From Candidatus Saccharimonadota bacterium (GTDB lineage: Bacteria > Patescibacteriota > Saccharimonadia > Saccharimonadales > Saccharimonadaceae): a stretch of DNA of 44,436 nt. Below are positions 20,866 to 34,932 of the stretch, piece after piece (position 1 is the stretch's first letter; each line of letters starts with the position of its first letter). Below the pieces are notes generated by a model. That model saw only the letters and a list, made by a program, of their open reading frames with translations, made no database searches and was not told the DNA's origin. Where the stretch lies: the NCBI GenBank assembly GCA_027312225.1, contig DAICXK010000001.1:1-44436 (forward strand), in the 5' to 3' direction. Made by a program: the position numbers and the translations under genes.

Positions 20866-20884
20866 CATCTTGGCAGATTAAAAT

Positions 20885-20926
20885 ACGAAAACACCCCGCC
20901 ATCCCCACGCGGGAGACGGGGGGTGT
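20885..20926 (-). terminator. Terminator of the GC-rich 82-residue ORF
   Basis: On the minus strand ACACCCC and GGGGTGT pair around a GC-rich inner hairpin and are followed by TTTTCG. It insulates the secY promoter. Confidence 0.7.
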
Positions 20927-20952
20927 CTCGACCGCGCCAGGAACAAGCGGGG

Positions 20953-21201
20953 TTAGGTGGTCACAGGGACCGGGGAGAGCACGTGGAAGGTCCGGTCGCC
21001 GATGCGAACCTCGACCGGGATGTTGCCCTGCAGACTGACCTGACGAGGTACGCCCAAGCCAGTACTCTCCAGCGCGCCGAGCGAGTACGGCTTGATGCCG
21101 TATTCGGTCCAGTTGAGTCCCAGACGGATCTCGATGCGCTCACCGTCATCACTGACTCGCGTCATCAGCATCTCTTGGCGCGTCTTCAGCTTTACTGCCA
21201 T
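20953..21201 (-). CDS. GC-rich orphan small protein (82 residues)
   Basis: A soluble 82-residue protein with no recognised domain. The sequence alternates charged and beta-prone stretches (VSDDGERIEIRLGLNW, GIKPYSLGAL, VEVRIGDRTFHVLSP), suggesting a small beta fold. It has every mark of an expressed gene: a strong promoter, a 50-base leader with a possible hairpin, AGGAGG four bases from the ATG, and its own terminator. Its codons are clearly more GC-rich (CTG, CGG, GTC, ACC) than the ribosomal genes on either side, suggesting a different origin. It sits between rplO and secY, where most bacteria have nothing. Confidence 0.72.
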   Translation of the reverse strand: MAVKLKTRQEMLMTRVSDDGERIEIRLGLNWTEYGIKPYSLGALESTGLGVPRQVSLQGNIPVEVRIGDRTFHVLSPVPVTT

Positions 21202-21258: not shown

Positions 21259-21287
21259 ATTATATCATACTTTTGTAATATAAGCAA
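21259..21287 (-). promoter_or_regulatory. Strong promoter of the 82-residue ORF
   Basis: On the minus strand TTGCTT (21282-21287), 17 bases and TATAAT (21259-21264), with TG one base before the -10 (extended -10). Confidence 0.82.
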
Positions 21288-23296: not shown

Positions 23297-23435
23297 GTCT
23301 TACCTTTCGTTATAGCAAGTGAGTCATGGTCGCCTCGGGCTGAGCATCCTGAGGGGACGCAGCGCAAAATCTCCGTGATTTCACTCGCAATTTATATATC
23401 CGTATTATCGTACCACAGATGGATGCTTTATTCAA
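23297..23435 (-). promoter_or_regulatory. Promoter and structured leader of rplF-rplR-rpsE-rplO
   Basis: On the minus strand TTGAAT (23430-23435), 17 bases and TACGAT (23407-23412). The leader of about 104 bases contains GCGAGTGA near its start and TCACTTGC near its end, which can pair over eight positions (one G-U) around a GC-rich inner region. This could be an autoregulatory fold, which is inference only. Confidence 0.5.
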
Positions 23436-23455
23436 GCTATTCGGAGCGTCCTCGC

Positions 23456-24088
23456 CTACTTTTTAAATTTATAAACGATTGCCAAGGTCACCGCACTCGC
23501 AACGGCAACCCGGGCTGTCTCAGCCAGCACGCGCGATGCAATTCGTTTAACCCGACGGTGAGGTGATTCATATTCAGCATTTGCCAGCCTTGCAACGAGA
23601 TCGTCGTCCTCAGACAATATCTCATTAAAGTGTGCGAGTACGTGCGCCACAAACGCCTCATGATCGGCATCATCTCCCGCGTCATGCCCTCCCATCTCAA
23701 GACAACCGACCAATCGGTCGCGCATATCCCGGTAGGTCTTCGGATCCACCGCCAAGTCATCATCATATTCGGCAAACAGTGCGCCGTGCTTTTCTGTCGT
23801 GTCAATCAGTAGTGTACTGGCAATTTCAATGTCAGCTGCCCGCTGGTCATCATCAGGAGCAGTGCCACCGTCACCTTCAAGACTTACTAATACTGTTTCG
23901 AGATCGGTGATTAAGGTGTCGCGTGCCTTGCTAAGCTCTCGATACCGAGCATCTGTCGAGTTTTCGATGTATCGATCATAGGCCATCACCAATCGGCTGT
24001 CACTCGCATCAAACTCTCGGATTACATCGCCAAGACTGCGCGGCGCGTCATCAAATGCGTCAAATTGTTCGGGGTTTACAGATGTCAT
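23456..24088 (-). CDS. Acidic protein with C-terminal membrane anchor, unknown function
   Basis: A 210-residue protein, strongly acidic and helical over residues 1-175 (for example EGDGGTAPDDDQRA and LSEDDDLVARLANAEYES), then basic (RRVKRIASR), then one hydrophobic helix (VAVASAVTLAIVYKFKK) at the very end. The layout is that of a tail-anchored protein facing the cytoplasm. No family is recognised. It has its own promoter and stands between a GC-rich cassette and the rplF leader. Codon use fits the host better than the cassette does. Confidence 0.72.
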   Translation of the reverse strand: MTSVNPEQFDAFDDAPRSLGDVIREFDASDSRLVMAYDRYIENSTDARYRELSKARDTLITDLETVLVSLEGDGGTAPDDDQRAADIEIASTLLIDTTEKHGALFAEYDDDLAVDPKTYRDMRDRLVGCLEMGGHDAGDDADHEAFVAHVLAHFNEILSEDDDLVARLANAEYESPHRRVKRIASRVLAETARVAVASAVTLAIVYKFKK

Positions 24089-24096
24089 TTCAGTGT

Positions 24097-24125
24097 ATTA
24101 TTTGGTAGTTACGTGCAATACGCAA
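24097..24125 (-). promoter_or_regulatory. Promoter of the tail-anchored acidic protein
   Basis: On the minus strand TTGCGT (24120-24125), 17 bases and AATAAT (24097-24102). The ATG at 24088 comes eight bases later, so the mRNA would be leaderless or nearly so. Confidence 0.55.
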
Positions 24126-24136
24126 GCATAAGCATG

Positions 24137-24162
24137 GAAAAGGACGCCTGTGAGGGCGTCCT
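24137..24162 (-). terminator. Terminator of the 186-residue GC-rich ORF
   Basis: The stem AGGACGCC/GGCGTCCT with a six-base loop, followed by TTTTCC on the minus strand. Confidence 0.75.
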
Positions 24163-24199
24163 CGTCCTATTCAGTTGTGCCCCTCGGCAGGCCACGTTG

Positions 24200-24760
24200 T
24201 CACGCAATGGCGACACCGCGACCCGGCAGGAGGTCGGGGAGGCTAAACCTTGACGACAGCGGCTTCCGCTGGCGCTTGCGCCTTCGACCACTGGCCGAAC
24301 GATGAAGGTTCATGACCATCACCGTGCAGTATTCCTGGCAGGCGCCGACATCAGCGTGCAGGCAGCGTACGTTCGGATCGTACTGTAGCTGCCACCAGCG
24401 CTTGATCTGTCCATACTGCAACAGACCGATTGCGTAGGGCTGTTCCCGCAGGACTGTCGTCATGTCGCACAGCGTCATGCCGTCGCCCCAATCATGGATC
24501 GGGCGTCCGTCCACCCGCTGGGGCCATCCGGCCTCTAGGGCGGCGAACATGTCTCCGTCGTCATTCGCCCACACACGCTCCTTGTCCAGCCTGAACATCT
24601 GCTCAAATGCCAGTGACTGTTCGCCACCAGTGCTAAGCTTCACCTCCAGAACGCCGGGCGTCACAGCGGCATACGCCTCGTACGGGGCAGGCTTGACCGT
24701 CATCGAGCGGATGATGCTGCGTACCGCCCCTCGAACTAACCAACCTATCAGCAGGGACAT
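24200..24760 (-). CDS. GC-rich orphan protein (186 residues)
   Basis: A 186-residue protein with no recognised family. The N-terminus MSLLIGWLVRGAVRSIIRS is amphipathic and may touch the membrane. The middle (PGVLEVKLSTGGEQSLAFEQ, WANDDGDMFAALEAGWPQR) looks globular. Four cysteines fall between residues about 96 and 145, three of them in CLHADVGACQEYC, which could bind metal. The tail is very basic (SGRRRKRQRK). GGAG stands five bases from the ATG. It has its own promoter and terminator. Codon use is GC-rich like the 82-residue ORF at 20953 and unlike its neighbours. Confidence 0.65.
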   Translation of the reverse strand: MSLLIGWLVRGAVRSIIRSMTVKPAPYEAYAAVTPGVLEVKLSTGGEQSLAFEQMFRLDKERVWANDDGDMFAALEAGWPQRVDGRPIHDWGDGMTLCDMTTVLREQPYAIGLLQYGQIKRWWQLQYDPNVRCLHADVGACQEYCTVMVMNLHRSASGRRRKRQRKPLSSRFSLPDLLPGRGVAIA

Positions 24761-24798
24761 TTCGTCTCCACCTCTCTCTCAACCAACAGGACTTGTGT

Positions 24799-24827
24799 AT
24801 TATATACATTCAGATAGGAAGCCGCAA
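24799..24827 (-). promoter_or_regulatory. Promoter of the 186-residue GC-rich ORF
   Basis: On the minus strand TTGCGG (24822-24827), 17 bases and TATAAT (24799-24804), giving a leader of about 32 bases. Confidence 0.72.
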
Positions 24828-24871
24828 ATGAGCACTTTACGTCATGCTACACTAAGGAAAAGGAGATACCT

Positions 24872-25276
24872 ATGCCAACATTTCGCTACGCAAAATTAGT
24901 ACGTGATAACATACCAAGTTTTCACATTGAATCTGGCCACACGTTCACAGGGCGCACGCTGAAAGGTAAGGAGCTAGTGGATGCGCTTGTGACTAAGCTT
25001 CATGAAGAAGCTGACGAAGTCGACGGTGCACTAAACCCCGATGAATTGATCGAGGAGCTGGCGGACGTGCAACAGATTATTGATGATCTTTGCACCGTCA
25101 GTGGTATCAGAAAAGAAGATATGACTACCGTCATGGCCAAAAAAGCCGCGCGAAAAGGTGGGTTCTTGCAAGGCAAATATATCGAGACGGTCACGATGCC
25201 AACCGAGGACGATAAATGGGTCGCCTACTGTCGAAACACGCCTGACAAATATCCGGAAATCAAGGAAGTCGTATGA
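24872..25276 (+). CDS. MazG-like / phosphoribosyl-ATP pyrophosphohydrolase-like protein
   Basis: A 134-residue all-alpha NTP pyrophosphohydrolase. It starts with YAKLVRDNIPSF, the mark of a MazG-like subgroup often labelled phosphoribosyl-ATP pyrophosphohydrolase. The metal-binding motif KLHEEADEV (ExxE) is followed by ELIEELADVQQIIDDL (ExxD). No his genes are nearby, so nucleotide-pool cleaning is likelier than histidine synthesis. AAGGAG precedes the ATG, and an extended -10 (TGCTACACT, TACACT at 24848-24853) is upstream. Its stop overlaps the next start as ATGA. Confidence 0.8.
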   Translation: MPTFRYAKLVRDNIPSFHIESGHTFTGRTLKGKELVDALVTKLHEEADEVDGALNPDELIEELADVQQIIDDLCTVSGIRKEDMTTVMAKKAARKGGFLQGKYIETVTMPTEDDKWVAYCRNTPDKYPEIKEVV

Positions 25277-25821
25277 AGCCTGTTTTTATAACCGGTAATG
25301 CCGACAAGGCTACGTACCTGGCCCAGCATCTTGGCGTTCACCTGGAACACCAAAAGGTTGATCTCGACGAAATCCAGTCAACCAGCCTGGAAGAAATTGT
25401 CGAACATAAGGTACGTCAGGCGTATGACCTCATCGGAAAACCCGTGCTGGTCGAGGATGTGGCCCTGGGATTTGACGCGCTGAATGGCCTGCCTGGACCA
25501 TTTATTAAGTTCTTTGTAGATGCGCCTGACGGACTGGAAAAGCTATGCCGTACACTAGATACGCTCAAAAACCGAAGGGCCAGTGCCGCTTGCGTCTACG
25601 GGTACTACGATGGTACGCGCCTTGAGTTGTTTCGTGGCGGCCTCGATGGCGAGATTGCCGATTCACCACGCGGCGATGGTGGCTTTGGCTGGGACAAGAT
25701 ATTTTGTCCTGATGGATATAATGGCCGGACTCGGGCTGAACTTCACCCAGATGAAGACCGGGCAACATACGCCACTATCAAGCCATACGCTGCCTTGAGA
25801 GAATTCCTCTCGACGCTATAA
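25273..25821 (+). CDS. HAM1/RdgB-type non-canonical purine NTP pyrophosphatase
   Basis: A 182-residue protein. The N-terminal ITGNADKATYLAQHLG corresponds to the (S/T)xNxxK substrate loop. LVEDVALGFDALNGLPGPFI is the family's central D-x2-L-xx-GLPG signature, and GDGGFGWDKIFCPDGY near residue 137 is the FGYDP-like loop with Trp-Asp-Lys instead of Tyr-Asp-Pro. It removes dITP/XTP from the nucleotide pool. It is coupled by ATGA to the MazG-like gene, so the two form a house-cleaning pair. Confidence 0.85.
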   Translation: MKPVFITGNADKATYLAQHLGVHLEHQKVDLDEIQSTSLEEIVEHKVRQAYDLIGKPVLVEDVALGFDALNGLPGPFIKFFVDAPDGLEKLCRTLDTLKNRRASAACVYGYYDGTRLELFRGGLDGEIADSPRGDGGFGWDKIFCPDGYNGRTRAELHPDEDRATYATIKPYAALREFLSTL

Positions 25822-25823
25822 AT

Positions 25824-25858
25824 AAAATACGGCCGCGATACAATCACGGCCGTATTTT
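25824..25858. terminator. Bidirectional terminator between convergent genes
   Basis: The stem AAAATACGGCCG/CGGCCGTATTTT with an eleven-base loop. It ends the HAM1 transcript (plus) and the GlsB transcript (minus). Confidence 0.88.
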
Positions 25859-25876
25859 TGATAGGCGTAATCCAGC

Positions 25877-26131
25877 CTAGTCTTTTTTACCCGTTACCAA
25901 ACGGATGATCCAGATTAAGATGACGGCGCCAACGACAGCGACAAGCAAGCTCCATACCCAGCTGGCATCACCAAAGCCGTCTGCCCCAAACGTTTCAAAC
26001 AGCCACCCACCGAGGAGCGCGCCGAGGATACCAACAATAATATTCTTTATCAATCCGCCCTCCTCTTTCATGATTGCCTTGGCAATCAGGCCGGCGAGAC
26101 CTCCGATTACGATCCATCCCAACCAAGTCAC
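25877..26131 (-). CDS. GlsB/YeaQ/YmgE-family membrane protein
   Basis: An 84-residue protein with three hydrophobic segments and the Gly-rich GWIVIGGLAGLIAKAIM and GILGALLGGWLFE of the transglycosylase-associated (GlsB) family. These small membrane proteins are stress-linked; their biochemistry is unknown. The GTG start at 26131 follows AAAGGAGGTG, an almost ideal Shine-Dalgarno site. The extended -10 TGCTATAAT (TATAAT at 26162-26167) lies upstream. Confidence 0.88.
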   Translation of the reverse strand: MTWLGWIVIGGLAGLIAKAIMKEEGGLIKNIIVGILGALLGGWLFETFGADGFGDASWVWSLLVAVVGAVILIWIIRLVTGKKD

Positions 26132-26161
26132 AATGCACCTCCTTTATTATTTGACAGGTCT

Positions 26162-26170
26162 ATTATAGCA
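26162..26170 (-). promoter_or_regulatory. Extended -10 promoter of the GlsB-like gene
   Basis: TGCTATAAT on the minus strand, about 24 bases before the predicted leader's AAAGGAGG. Confidence 0.6.
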
Positions 26171-26216
26171 CAAGTATTGTTTTCAATTTTAAGGTTATGT
26201 TGTAGACTAAAAGCAT

Positions 26217-26861
26217 ATGCATATTAGAATAGCTAATAGAAGTACGCATGGCTTTACTATCGTGGAGCTCCTTGTTGTTATCATAGTCATTGGAATCTTG
26301 GCTGCGATTACGATTGTCAGCTACAACGGTATCCAGCAACGAGCATACAACACAAAAACCATTGCACTCGTAAACCAATGGACAAAGACAATACGCTTAT
26401 ACCAGGTAAGCTCAGGAAGCTTGCCAGAAGATTGGACGTGTCTCGGAGTGTCTGCTAGCGAATTTGAAGCAATACCCAGTGAGCAAATTGGTGTTGGACA
26501 ATGCGAGCGTAACATTATCGTCATCAATCCTTCCCCAGACTGGACATCAGAGCTAAAGACAGTTCCAACCGTAGGATCGGAACAGCCAACGAGTATGCTT
26601 CTTGCTCAGGAGGCCACCCCATCGCCCGGCCTACTACCTATGCAGCGTGCTGGCACAAATGGCTATATCAGGGGCATCGTATATGCCGTAATTTTTGACC
26701 CTGCCCAAGCGCCAAATTCTCAACCAGGAGCCTACATTTTTTATGCTCTCAAGAATCAAGACTGTCCACCCACCAAAGATTATCGAATTATCGATAATCT
26801 TTCGGTATGCGCCGAGAAACTAACGACAGATAACTACGCCCAAGAGATATTTCAACCGTAA
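26217..26861 (+). CDS. Type IV pilin-like protein
   Basis: A 214-residue protein with a class III prepilin leader. The short basic N-terminus MHIRIANRSTHG is followed by FTIVELLVVIIVIGILAAIT, with cleavage expected between Gly and Phe, Glu at mature position 5, and a hydrophobic alpha1 helix. The globular part has two cysteine pairs (CLGV...QCERN, CPPT...VCAEK), likely disulfides. Type IV pilins build thin fibres for adhesion or DNA uptake. No pilus assembly genes (pilB/C/D/M) are in the window, so it would rely on a remote machine. TAGACT (26203-26208) ends eight bases before the ATG, suggesting a leaderless start. Confidence 0.85.
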   Translation: MHIRIANRSTHGFTIVELLVVIIVIGILAAITIVSYNGIQQRAYNTKTIALVNQWTKTIRLYQVSSGSLPEDWTCLGVSASEFEAIPSEQIGVGQCERNIIVINPSPDWTSELKTVPTVGSEQPTSMLLAQEATPSPGLLPMQRAGTNGYIRGIVYAVIFDPAQAPNSQPGAYIFYALKNQDCPPTKDYRIIDNLSVCAEKLTTDNYAQEIFQP

Positions 26862-26920
26862 TTAGTTATCTCACAGTTTACGACGCAAGTTCGAGCTCTC
26901 GCTCGGCAAGTTGCTTGAGG

Positions 26921-26929
26921 TGGTATGAT
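26921..26929 (+). promoter_or_regulatory. Extended -10 promoter of the Nudix gene
   Basis: TGGTATGAT, with TATGAT at 26924-26929 and the ATG starting at 26936, six bases later. A leaderless mRNA is predicted. Confidence 0.65.
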
Positions 26930-26935
26930 AGTTCT

Positions 26936-27385
26936 ATGAGAACTATTCATAGGGATATTGTGGGCGGTTTTATCTTCTCAAAAGACGGCAAGCTGCTACT
27001 CGGTAAAAATCGCGAGGGCGGCGTTTACGAAGGTTCCTACGTTGTGCCAGGCGGTGGTGTTGATGACGGCGAGACAAGAGAGGCCGCCCTCCGTCGTGAG
27101 ATGCAAGAGGAAACAGGCATTGATATCGACCAGGCGGTTGTTACCGCGTTTAATCAGTCTTCGGGGGAACATGAAAAAACGCTCCGCGATACTGGCGAGC
27201 GTGTGTTCGTAAAAATGAATTTCTATGATTACCGCATTGATATCAATCAGGATGCTGCCGACATCCAGTTATCTACCGAGGACGACTGGCACCAGCCCCG
27301 CTGGTTCAGTATTGACGAACTAAAGGATGCGAACCTGAGTACCGCAACGCGTAATACCCTCGTCATGACACAGATCCTAAATTAA
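26936..27385 (+). CDS. Nudix hydrolase
   Basis: A 149-residue protein. The Nudix box runs from GGGVDDGETREAALRREMQE into ETGID (pattern Gx5Ex7REUxEExGU). The N-terminal HRDIVGGFIFSKDGKLLLGK and the loop YVVPGGG resemble GDP-mannose mannosyl hydrolase (NudD/Gmm) type members. The start at 26936 fits both the promoter spacing and the fold; the longer frame from 26915 would begin inside the promoter. It hydrolyses a nucleoside diphosphate-linked substrate, which the sequence does not define. Confidence 0.88.
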   Translation: MRTIHRDIVGGFIFSKDGKLLLGKNREGGVYEGSYVVPGGGVDDGETREAALRREMQEETGIDIDQAVVTAFNQSSGEHEKTLRDTGERVFVKMNFYDYRIDINQDAADIQLSTEDDWHQPRWFSIDELKDANLSTATRNTLVMTQILN

Positions 27386-27562
27386 AAAATCCCCTTTCTG
27401 GGGTAGGGCACCCTCGGAACAGATAGTCCTGTCCGGGAGCGGCGGGGTGAACTCAGGCAGACGTACCCGAGGCGACAGCGCACTCCGGACGCCACAATCG
27501 ACGAGGTCAGGGCCTCTATCGATCAGGTGCGCCCGGAGTGCACCGTAGTAAACCATCTTCAT
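27377..27562 (-). CDS. Possible GC-rich small ORF between two terminators
   Basis: A 61-codon frame from the ATG at 27560-27562. GGGGAGG lies nine bases upstream, but inside the 3' arm of the rpsH terminator, and no separate promoter is seen, so translation would need read-through. The codons are GC-rich like the orphan ORFs at 20953 and 24200. The last codons run into a second terminator and overlap the Nudix stop. The opposite strand also has an open, coding-like frame with TIDEVRASIDQVRPECTVV but no start codon. The DNA can fold into nested stems: GCACTCCGG (27480-27488) with CCGGAGTGC (27533-27541), and inside it ATCGA/TCGAT and GAGG/CCTC. Small protein, gene remnant or RNA cannot be decided here. 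Confidence 0.3.
   Translation of the reverse strand: MKMVYYGALRAHLIDRGPDLVDCGVRSALSPRVRLPEFTPPLPDRTICSEGALPQKGDFLI
27384..27403 (-). terminator. Minus-strand terminator downstream of the GC-rich segment
   Basis: A CCCC/GGGG stem with a five-base loop, followed by ATTTTTT on the minus strand. It overlaps the Nudix stop codon. Confidence 0.55.
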
Positions 27563-27565
27563 GCA

Positions 27566-27597
27566 AAAATGCCTCCCCATTTCTGGAGAGGCATTTT
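27566..27597. terminator. Bidirectional terminator after rpsH
   Basis: The stem AAAATGCCTC/GAGGCATTTT with a twelve-base loop. It ends the rplC-to-rpsH transcript. Confidence 0.85.
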
Positions 27598-27621
27598 ATT
27601 TATGCGTATAGTGCCGTAGCT

Positions 27622-34189: not shown

Positions 34190-34283
34190 TGCCTTCAAAC
34201 TCCCATTTAAAATCTCCGGTGACGAGTGGTATCCGTCGGGTTCTACCCCTGCTGGACCTGCTCATTCACGCGGAAACAAGTTG

Positions 34284-34338
34284 TTATTACGTAATAAGTT
34301 ACCCAGCTATCCTAGCACAAATAACCCCCGTAAGTCAA
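34284..34338 (-). promoter_or_regulatory. Promoter and palindrome of the rplC-rpsH operon
   Basis: On the minus strand TTGACT (34333-34338), 18 bases and TAGGAT (34309-34314), with TG one base before the -10 (extended -10). Just downstream, at 34284-34297, lies the perfect 14-bp palindrome TTATTACGTAATAA, over or right after the predicted start of transcription. It may be an operator. The leader to rplC is about 110 bases. Confidence 0.7.
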
Positions 34339-34506
34339 GAGTTTGAGAGCGTTAAGAGTCAGGCTGTCGAGAGCGTTGCTGAGCAGTCAAAGATCGTCGG
34401 CGAAATCAAAGGCAATGCTGACAGCATAAAGGACACTATCACTTCTGAGGTTTCAGGTGTCGTCACTGAAGCCAAAGAAGCATTCAAGGGCTCTACCCAA
34501 AACTAA
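34330..34506 (+). pseudogene. 3' remnant of a coiled-coil ORF
   Basis: In this frame the last ~57 codons before the TAA are coding-like: VSQEFESVKSQAVESVAEQS, then KGNADSIKDTITSEV and VTEAKEAFKGSTQN, an amphipathic helix. No credible start codon exists; the frame runs back through the rplC promoter and into rplC. It is probably the tail of a gene whose 5' part was lost when the rplC promoter region came to lie here. A non-standard start cannot be excluded. Confidence 0.4.
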
Positions 34507-34560
34507 GCATATTTAGTATACTGACGAATATACTATTATTCACCAAAGGGAGCATACGTC

Positions 34561-34869
34561 ATGGTGGCAAAAAAGGAAGCTGCAAAGACAACTAAAAAAG
34601 CAACGACAAAATCGACAGCATCAAAATCAAAGTCCGTAACTACTAAGAAGCCCGTGTCACGGCCTGCCGCAAAGTCTAAGAAGGCTGCACCGGTCCAATC
34701 ATTCCGCCTCAGCCGAGAAACCGAGAAGTTTATCTCTTCACGCATCACCAGGCAAACTGTTTACTGGCTTATCCTTGCGCTCGCGATACTCGCCATGGGG
34801 CTCCTCGTGCTCAAGGCACAGCTTGATATCCTCCAGACATTAAACGAGATCTCAGAAGGCCTTTACTAA
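34561..34869 (+). CDS. Lys/Ala-rich protein with one transmembrane helix
   Basis: A 102-residue protein. Residues 1-45 are almost only Lys, Ala, Thr and Ser (KKEAAKTTKKATTKSTAS), like histone H1-type tails. A helix with LSRETEKFISSRITRQT follows, then one membrane segment (VYWLILALAILAMGLLVL) and a short end. The basic tail should stay in the cytoplasm and could bind DNA or RNA near the membrane; that is inference. AAAGGGAG lies seven bases before the ATG, and a TATACT at 34517-34522 is a possible -10 box. No family is recognised. Confidence 0.75.
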   Translation: MVAKKEAAKTTKKATTKSTASKSKSVTTKKPVSRPAAKSKKAAPVQSFRLSRETEKFISSRITRQTVYWLILALAILAMGLLVLKAQLDILQTLNEISEGLY

Positions 34870-34886
34870 AGATTATTTGCTAATTT

Positions 34887-34915
34887 AAAATACCTCCCGC
34901 ACTGGGAGGTATTTT
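34887..34915. terminator. Bidirectional terminator between convergent genes
   Basis: The stem AAAATACCTCCC/GGGAGGTATTTT with a five-base loop, serving both the Lys-rich gene and rpsJ. It shows that rpsJ is transcriptionally separate from rplC. Confidence 0.9.
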
Positions 34916-34932
34916 AATATACCGCAATACAA

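Follow-up and report, generated by a model that had tools for sequence, protein, structure and literature searches.

Phage morons are single-gene units that carry their own promoter and terminator and have an odd base composition, and the ribosomal protein genes rpsH (S8) and rplF (L6) are normally neighbours in the spc operon. Patescibacteria have been proposed to acquire genes through competence, conjugation and transduction (PMC12455944), com-dependent natural transformation is described for S. epibionticum (PMC10633639), and a type IV secretion system (T4SS) has been reported to be essential for the epibiotic growth of Saccharimonadia (PMC12102498). The stretch of DNA analysed here (the window, 44,436 nucleotides) comes from a genome of Ca. 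Saccharibacteria, the name also borne by its nearest relatives, and its owner is a tiny bacterium, probably with a host-dependent lifestyle. In this window rpsH and rplF are split by a 4.3 kb accessory insert, which contains a GC-rich one-gene unit of about 0.7 kb (24134–24830, minus strand) encoding a protein of 186 residues. We think it probable that this self-contained unit, with its small basic Cys/His accessory protein, enters genomes or is exchanged between them by transformation, persists at operon break points and diversifies fast. The best reading of such genes is that they are accessory, fast-evolving and laterally moving, with a function that we infer only.

The features of the 186-residue unit and of related loci are collected in Table 1. 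From its predicted signals, the locus is an autonomous single-gene transcription unit whose promoter, ORF and terminator have been kept together across genomes. A TTGNNN-17-TATAAT promoter and a dedicated terminator had been proposed in the first-pass annotation, and both stand: the promoter reads TTGCGG-17-TATAAT and the hairpin (dG −21.3, z −5.7) is followed by a T run of four only. Neither was called by a consensus scan, because of the weak −35 hexamer and the shortness of the T run; the case for these putative signals is comparative, since both homologs are preceded by a −10, the 6-nt spacing and the leader decamer. In each of the three copies TATANT is followed, after six nucleotides, by GTCCTGTTGG at the predicted +1, and a search of 131 family genomes for this pattern returned the three family genes and one chance site lacking a promoter-like −10. 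The hairpin terminators of the three members differ in stem sequence and agree in shape. The common decamer and the hairpin in all three therefore suggest that gene and frame travel together, and in three genomes the ORF keeps its promoter, its terminator and an unchanging 5′ leader, in different slots and orientations. No match to the leaders was found in Rfam. A spurious ORF was considered and discarded, as the homologs preserve the frame, the Cys residues and the C-terminus.

Table 1. Locations of the GC-rich units, their signals and related loci (plain positions are those of the window; G000, window genome, to which the contigs belong; G001, sister species; G121, MKSN01000001, 'Saccharibacteria bacterium 49-20')
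Feature	Location	Strand	Remarks
−35 hexamer TTGCGG, weak	24822..24827	-	17-nt spacer to −10; 3/6 positions
−10 hexamer TATAAT	24799..24804	-	homologs TATAGT / TATACT at equivalent position
Leader decamer GTCCTGTTGG	24783..24792	-	begins at predicted +1, 6 nt after −10; identical in 3/3 members
Shine-Dalgarno-like GAGGTGG	24768..24774	-	read directly
186-aa ORF, ATG start	24200..24760	-	family known from Saccharibacteria only; Cys/His cluster and basic tail; C-terminal PxRGxAIA conserved
Hairpin terminator of 186-aa unit	24138..24164	-	7-9 bp GC-rich stem, then TTTT; counterpart hairpins in G001 and G121
Accessory insert splitting rpsH (S8) and rplF (L6)	23297..27621	.	o210, o186, PRA-PH-like, Ham1, YeaQ-like, pilin-like, Nudix-like
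82-aa ORF, first GC-rich unit	20953..21201	-	between rplO (L15) and secY; no homologs found
Promoter of 82-aa unit, TTGCTT-17-TATAAT	21259..21287	-	read directly
Terminator hairpin of 82-aa unit	20880..20935	-	dG −31, z −3.7
186-aa family member, G001	L007:10150-10719	+	same S8-L6 insert, other slot, opposite orientation
186-aa family member, G121	L030:1492-2055		directly after rplJ-rplL
GC-rich unit, 155 aa	contig C1, L016 17060-17900		FAD-oxidase/dnaK intergenic; same slot in G001, L047 1400-2000
GC-rich unit, 241 aa (lipoprotein)	contig C6, L021 6830-7710		G001 counterpart L058
GC-rich units, 179 and 181 aa	contig C6		
GC-rich unit, 85 aa	contig C18		mscL/orn intergenic
GC-rich unit, 96 aa	contig C7		

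The Cys cluster and very basic tail that had been noticed at the outset are present (CLHADVGACQEYC plus a KR-rich tail) and conserved in the homologs. The cluster takes the form C-x-H-x5-C-x3-C in G000 and G121 and C-x2-C...C-x-C in G001, so that the family has a conserved putative four-ligand Cys/His set, as in a zinc-binding knuckle; LCD, YGQLKxWW, a KR-rich stretch and the C-terminal PxRGxAIA are also conserved in the three members. Protein-family searches with the 186-residue protein gave no match, nor did fold and PDB searches, for which the AlphaFold model was poor (pLDDT 48). The least certain of our conclusions concerns the product, which may fold around a metal-binding C-x-H...C...C knuckle and have a basic tail that binds nucleic acid or serves as a signal for type IV secretion.

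The GC-rich composition reported earlier also holds on recalculation. The ORF has a GC content of 0.617 and a GC3 of 0.74, compared with 0.51 ± 0.066 for the genome background (ORFs of at least 150 residues, 317 kb sampled of the same genome), and the other genes of the window, apart from the 82-residue unit, lie between 0.37 and 0.61. GC3 exceeds the genome background in every copy of the family, with values of 0.74, 0.58 and 0.86 against backgrounds near 0.5, and on the compositional test for horizontal acquisition the window gene differs from its host genome.

The protein had been called an orphan, which is nearly right, but it has two homologs, both in Saccharibacteria. The three known members lie within a single Saccharibacteria family (3/393 relatives), and all three are at ribosomal operon borders. 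In the sister species the slot that the gene occupies in the window, between o210 and the PRA-PH-like gene, is taken by a phosphatase-like gene. The family proteins are about 35% identical to one another, and between G000 and G001 the identity is 35%, compared with 95% for both L6 and S8, 85% for PRA-PH and 56% for o210. Mobility of the unit rests on few events, because three homologs are known and G000 and G001 share one island. A candidate fourth homolog in G009 (E 0.006) was left out, as a two-member profile did not recover it. Searches for a donor or for relatives outside the Saccharibacteria lineage found none: tblastn against 50,697 phage and 72,556 plasmid records, sequence and profile scans of IMG/VR, and about 85,000 species genomes gave no relatives beyond the three known members.

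The unit sits in a ribosomal protein operon breakpoint that repeatedly harbours accessory genes in this family, as is evident from a map of the spacing of neighbouring S10-spc cluster genes in 32 genomes. S8-L6 is expanded in 8/32 genomes, L15-SecY in 10/28, and S10-L3 in all 17 measurable genomes; SecY-S13 spacing is wide in every genome because other genes usually sit there. The remaining cluster junctions exceed 350 bp in two of about 400 instances, both in G021 (379 and 398 bp). S8-L6 and L15-SecY together are thus expanded in 18/60 instances versus 2/~400 other in-cluster junctions, with a Fisher p of ~1e-15 that is a rough guide only, because related genomes are not independent. In order-level outgroups the S8-L6 gaps are below 300 bp. 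There are therefore preferred break points in the S10-spc cluster that accept many kinds of genes; the cargo varies by genome, and GC-rich single ORFs are recurrent in G000, G001, G016 and G017.

Several other features of these junctions can be noted. Two plus-strand genes (34199–34932) lie between S10 and L3 in the window. The S8-L6 insert of the window contains PRA-PH-like, Ham1 and Nudix-like genes (24872–27385), of which G001 retains the first two, and the trio is possibly a nucleotide-pool cleaning set. The L15-SecY junction of G001 contains, in place of the 82-residue unit, a gene for a 539-residue repeat protein whose start looks pilin-like (L007 1346–2965). At the same junction of G019 (L070 14878–18353) there are four tandem ORFs of similar size (267–274 residues), possibly paralogs, and on contig C20 of G002 the L15-SecY distance is 23 kb, which suggests a large insert or a rearrangement.

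The 186-residue unit is one of a wider class of single-gene units that are rich in GC. The similarity of design to the unit at L15-SecY that had been recorded earlier is borne out, the latter having its own promoter and terminator and a GC3 of 0.77. A census of 317 of the 760 kb of the genome found at least six further units; most have no Pfam match, and the 179-residue protein has a bacterial PH domain. Most occupy ordinary sites between genes, among them mscL/orn and FAD-oxidase/dnaK. The proposal of a preferred site stands at the level of the operon break points. The companion proposal of a shared mode of entry fares badly: the ends of the 186- and 82-residue units have no above-chance sequence in common, the −10 box alone being shared, no inverted-repeat ends were seen, no linked integrase was recognised among the ORFs of the window, phage and plasmid relatives were not found, and most of the other units lie away from ribosomal borders.

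Two of the further units can be compared with the sister species. In the 155-residue unit the region from the −10 to the Shine-Dalgarno is 86% identical between G000 and G001 and the terminator 87%; the proteins are 25–26% identical and the ORF DNA is at the codon-shuffle baseline. In the 241-residue lipoprotein unit the promoter, leader and start region, including the signal-peptide start MFNIKR, is 83% identical, and no relatedness is detectable between the mature parts, although GC is high in both genes (0.62 and 0.61). Turnover is therefore much faster in the coding bodies than in the UTRs that flank them.

We propose that units of this type would arrive, and pass between genomes, as linear DNA taken up by natural transformation, that recombination in their flanks, either homologous or illegitimate, would integrate them, and that they would persist where splitting ribosomal protein sub-operons does no harm. 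Fast diversification would affect their coding bodies, as one would expect of proteins that face a host bacterium or a phage. Import by transformation is suggested by the competence of S. epibionticum (PMC10633639) and by the gene gain proposed for Patescibacteria (PMC12455944). A role facing the host cell may be surmised from the fast turnover, the patchiness, the lipoprotein members and the T4SS of Saccharimonadia (PMC12102498).

In-place rapid evolution is a serious rival because donors have not been found anywhere, even if we consider it the less likely of the two. Here the genes would be resident, vertically kept and very fast-evolving, with GC richness arising in place by GC-biased conversion through frequent recombination, or by selection, and composition would therefore be no signal of import. 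Such an origin fits two units that have syntenic counterparts in the sister species, where the frames are 83–87% identical and the bodies, though at random level, have stayed GC-rich; it also fits the raised GC3 of all three copies of the 186-residue gene in spite of their ~35% identity; and since syntenic units keep their UTRs while their bodies are at random level, a simple recent foreign insert is not clearly what is seen. Resident genes would not be expected to behave like the 186-residue unit, however, which is in another slot and orientation in the sister species and in another operon in G121, and occurs in 3/393 relatives only.

A ribosome-linked factor, in the form of a small basic Zn-knuckle protein of ribosomal protein operons that autoregulates through its 5′ leader, is improbable. 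It would explain why all three copies are at ribosomal protein borders and why a fixed sequence stands at the predicted RNA 5′ end, but not the very patchy distribution, the very low identity between sister species, or the orientation of the G001 copy, opposite to the operon. A complement between leader and 3′UTR would also suit it; however, pairing of the two as a conserved RNA closure was rejected, being significant in G121 only (p ~0.003) with duplex energies within those of shuffles, and the 3′ partner pairs locally within the terminator, whose outer stem is the better explanation of the AGGAY complement. We consider it quite improbable that the gene is a remnant of phage or plasmid cargo (a moron), which it resembles in being a single unit of odd composition with its own signals, given the negative phage, plasmid and IMG/VR searches and the lack of structural phage genes nearby. 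Finally, a site-specific cassette, whether integron-like or a small transposon, that has common ends and is moved by a recombinase or transposase would account for a self-contained unit in differing slots and for the 9-bp direct repeat TCCTTTTCC that brackets it (p ~0.06), but is very improbable, as one copy of the repeat is the terminator tail (also in G001) and the other the Shine-Dalgarno of the next gene, the ends are unlike those of the other GC-rich units, neither inverted-repeat nor attC-like ends were seen, the leader decamer accompanies no other cargo and so is no general cassette end, and, unlike most integron cassettes, the unit has its own promoter and terminator. No integrase or transposase was recognised in the window ORF list.

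Returning to lateral movement with fast diversification, we speculate, as a long shot, that the dispersed units are 'frames' with fixed promoter, leader and terminator, whose bodies are swapped or hypermutated between sister species as a fast-turnover host-directed arsenal, the GC-rich codons reflecting either capture from actinobacterial hosts that are themselves GC-rich or action inside them. There is no means of ranking most Saccharibacteria genes of unknown role, and the signature of a GC-rich body, a conserved UTR frame and an unrecognisable body in the sister species would help directly by picking candidate host-interaction genes. The breakpoint map also shows that in this family accessory genes gather at a small number of fixed break points within an operon that is commonly regarded as a single block.

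The closest described systems share some features with these units and differ in others. Like lineage-specific orphan genes of genomic islands they are patchy, fast-diverging, of odd composition and found at recurrent integration spots; unlike those genes, which are usually AT-rich, they are GC-rich, the spot is inside a ribosomal protein operon, and every gene forms a separate transcription unit, the UTR frame being demonstrably conserved in two of them. The 186-residue unit is like phage morons in being a single gene with its own promoter and terminator and a composition unlike its surroundings, but has neither prophage context nor phage homologs. Integron gene cassettes are likewise one-gene mobile units, although mostly promoterless and with attC sites, whereas shared ends were not found here and no integrase was seen in the window. 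The 186-residue protein lacks homology to any T4SS effector, and its likeness to effectors with basic C-terminal tails comes from its own C-terminus, which is basic and probably disordered.
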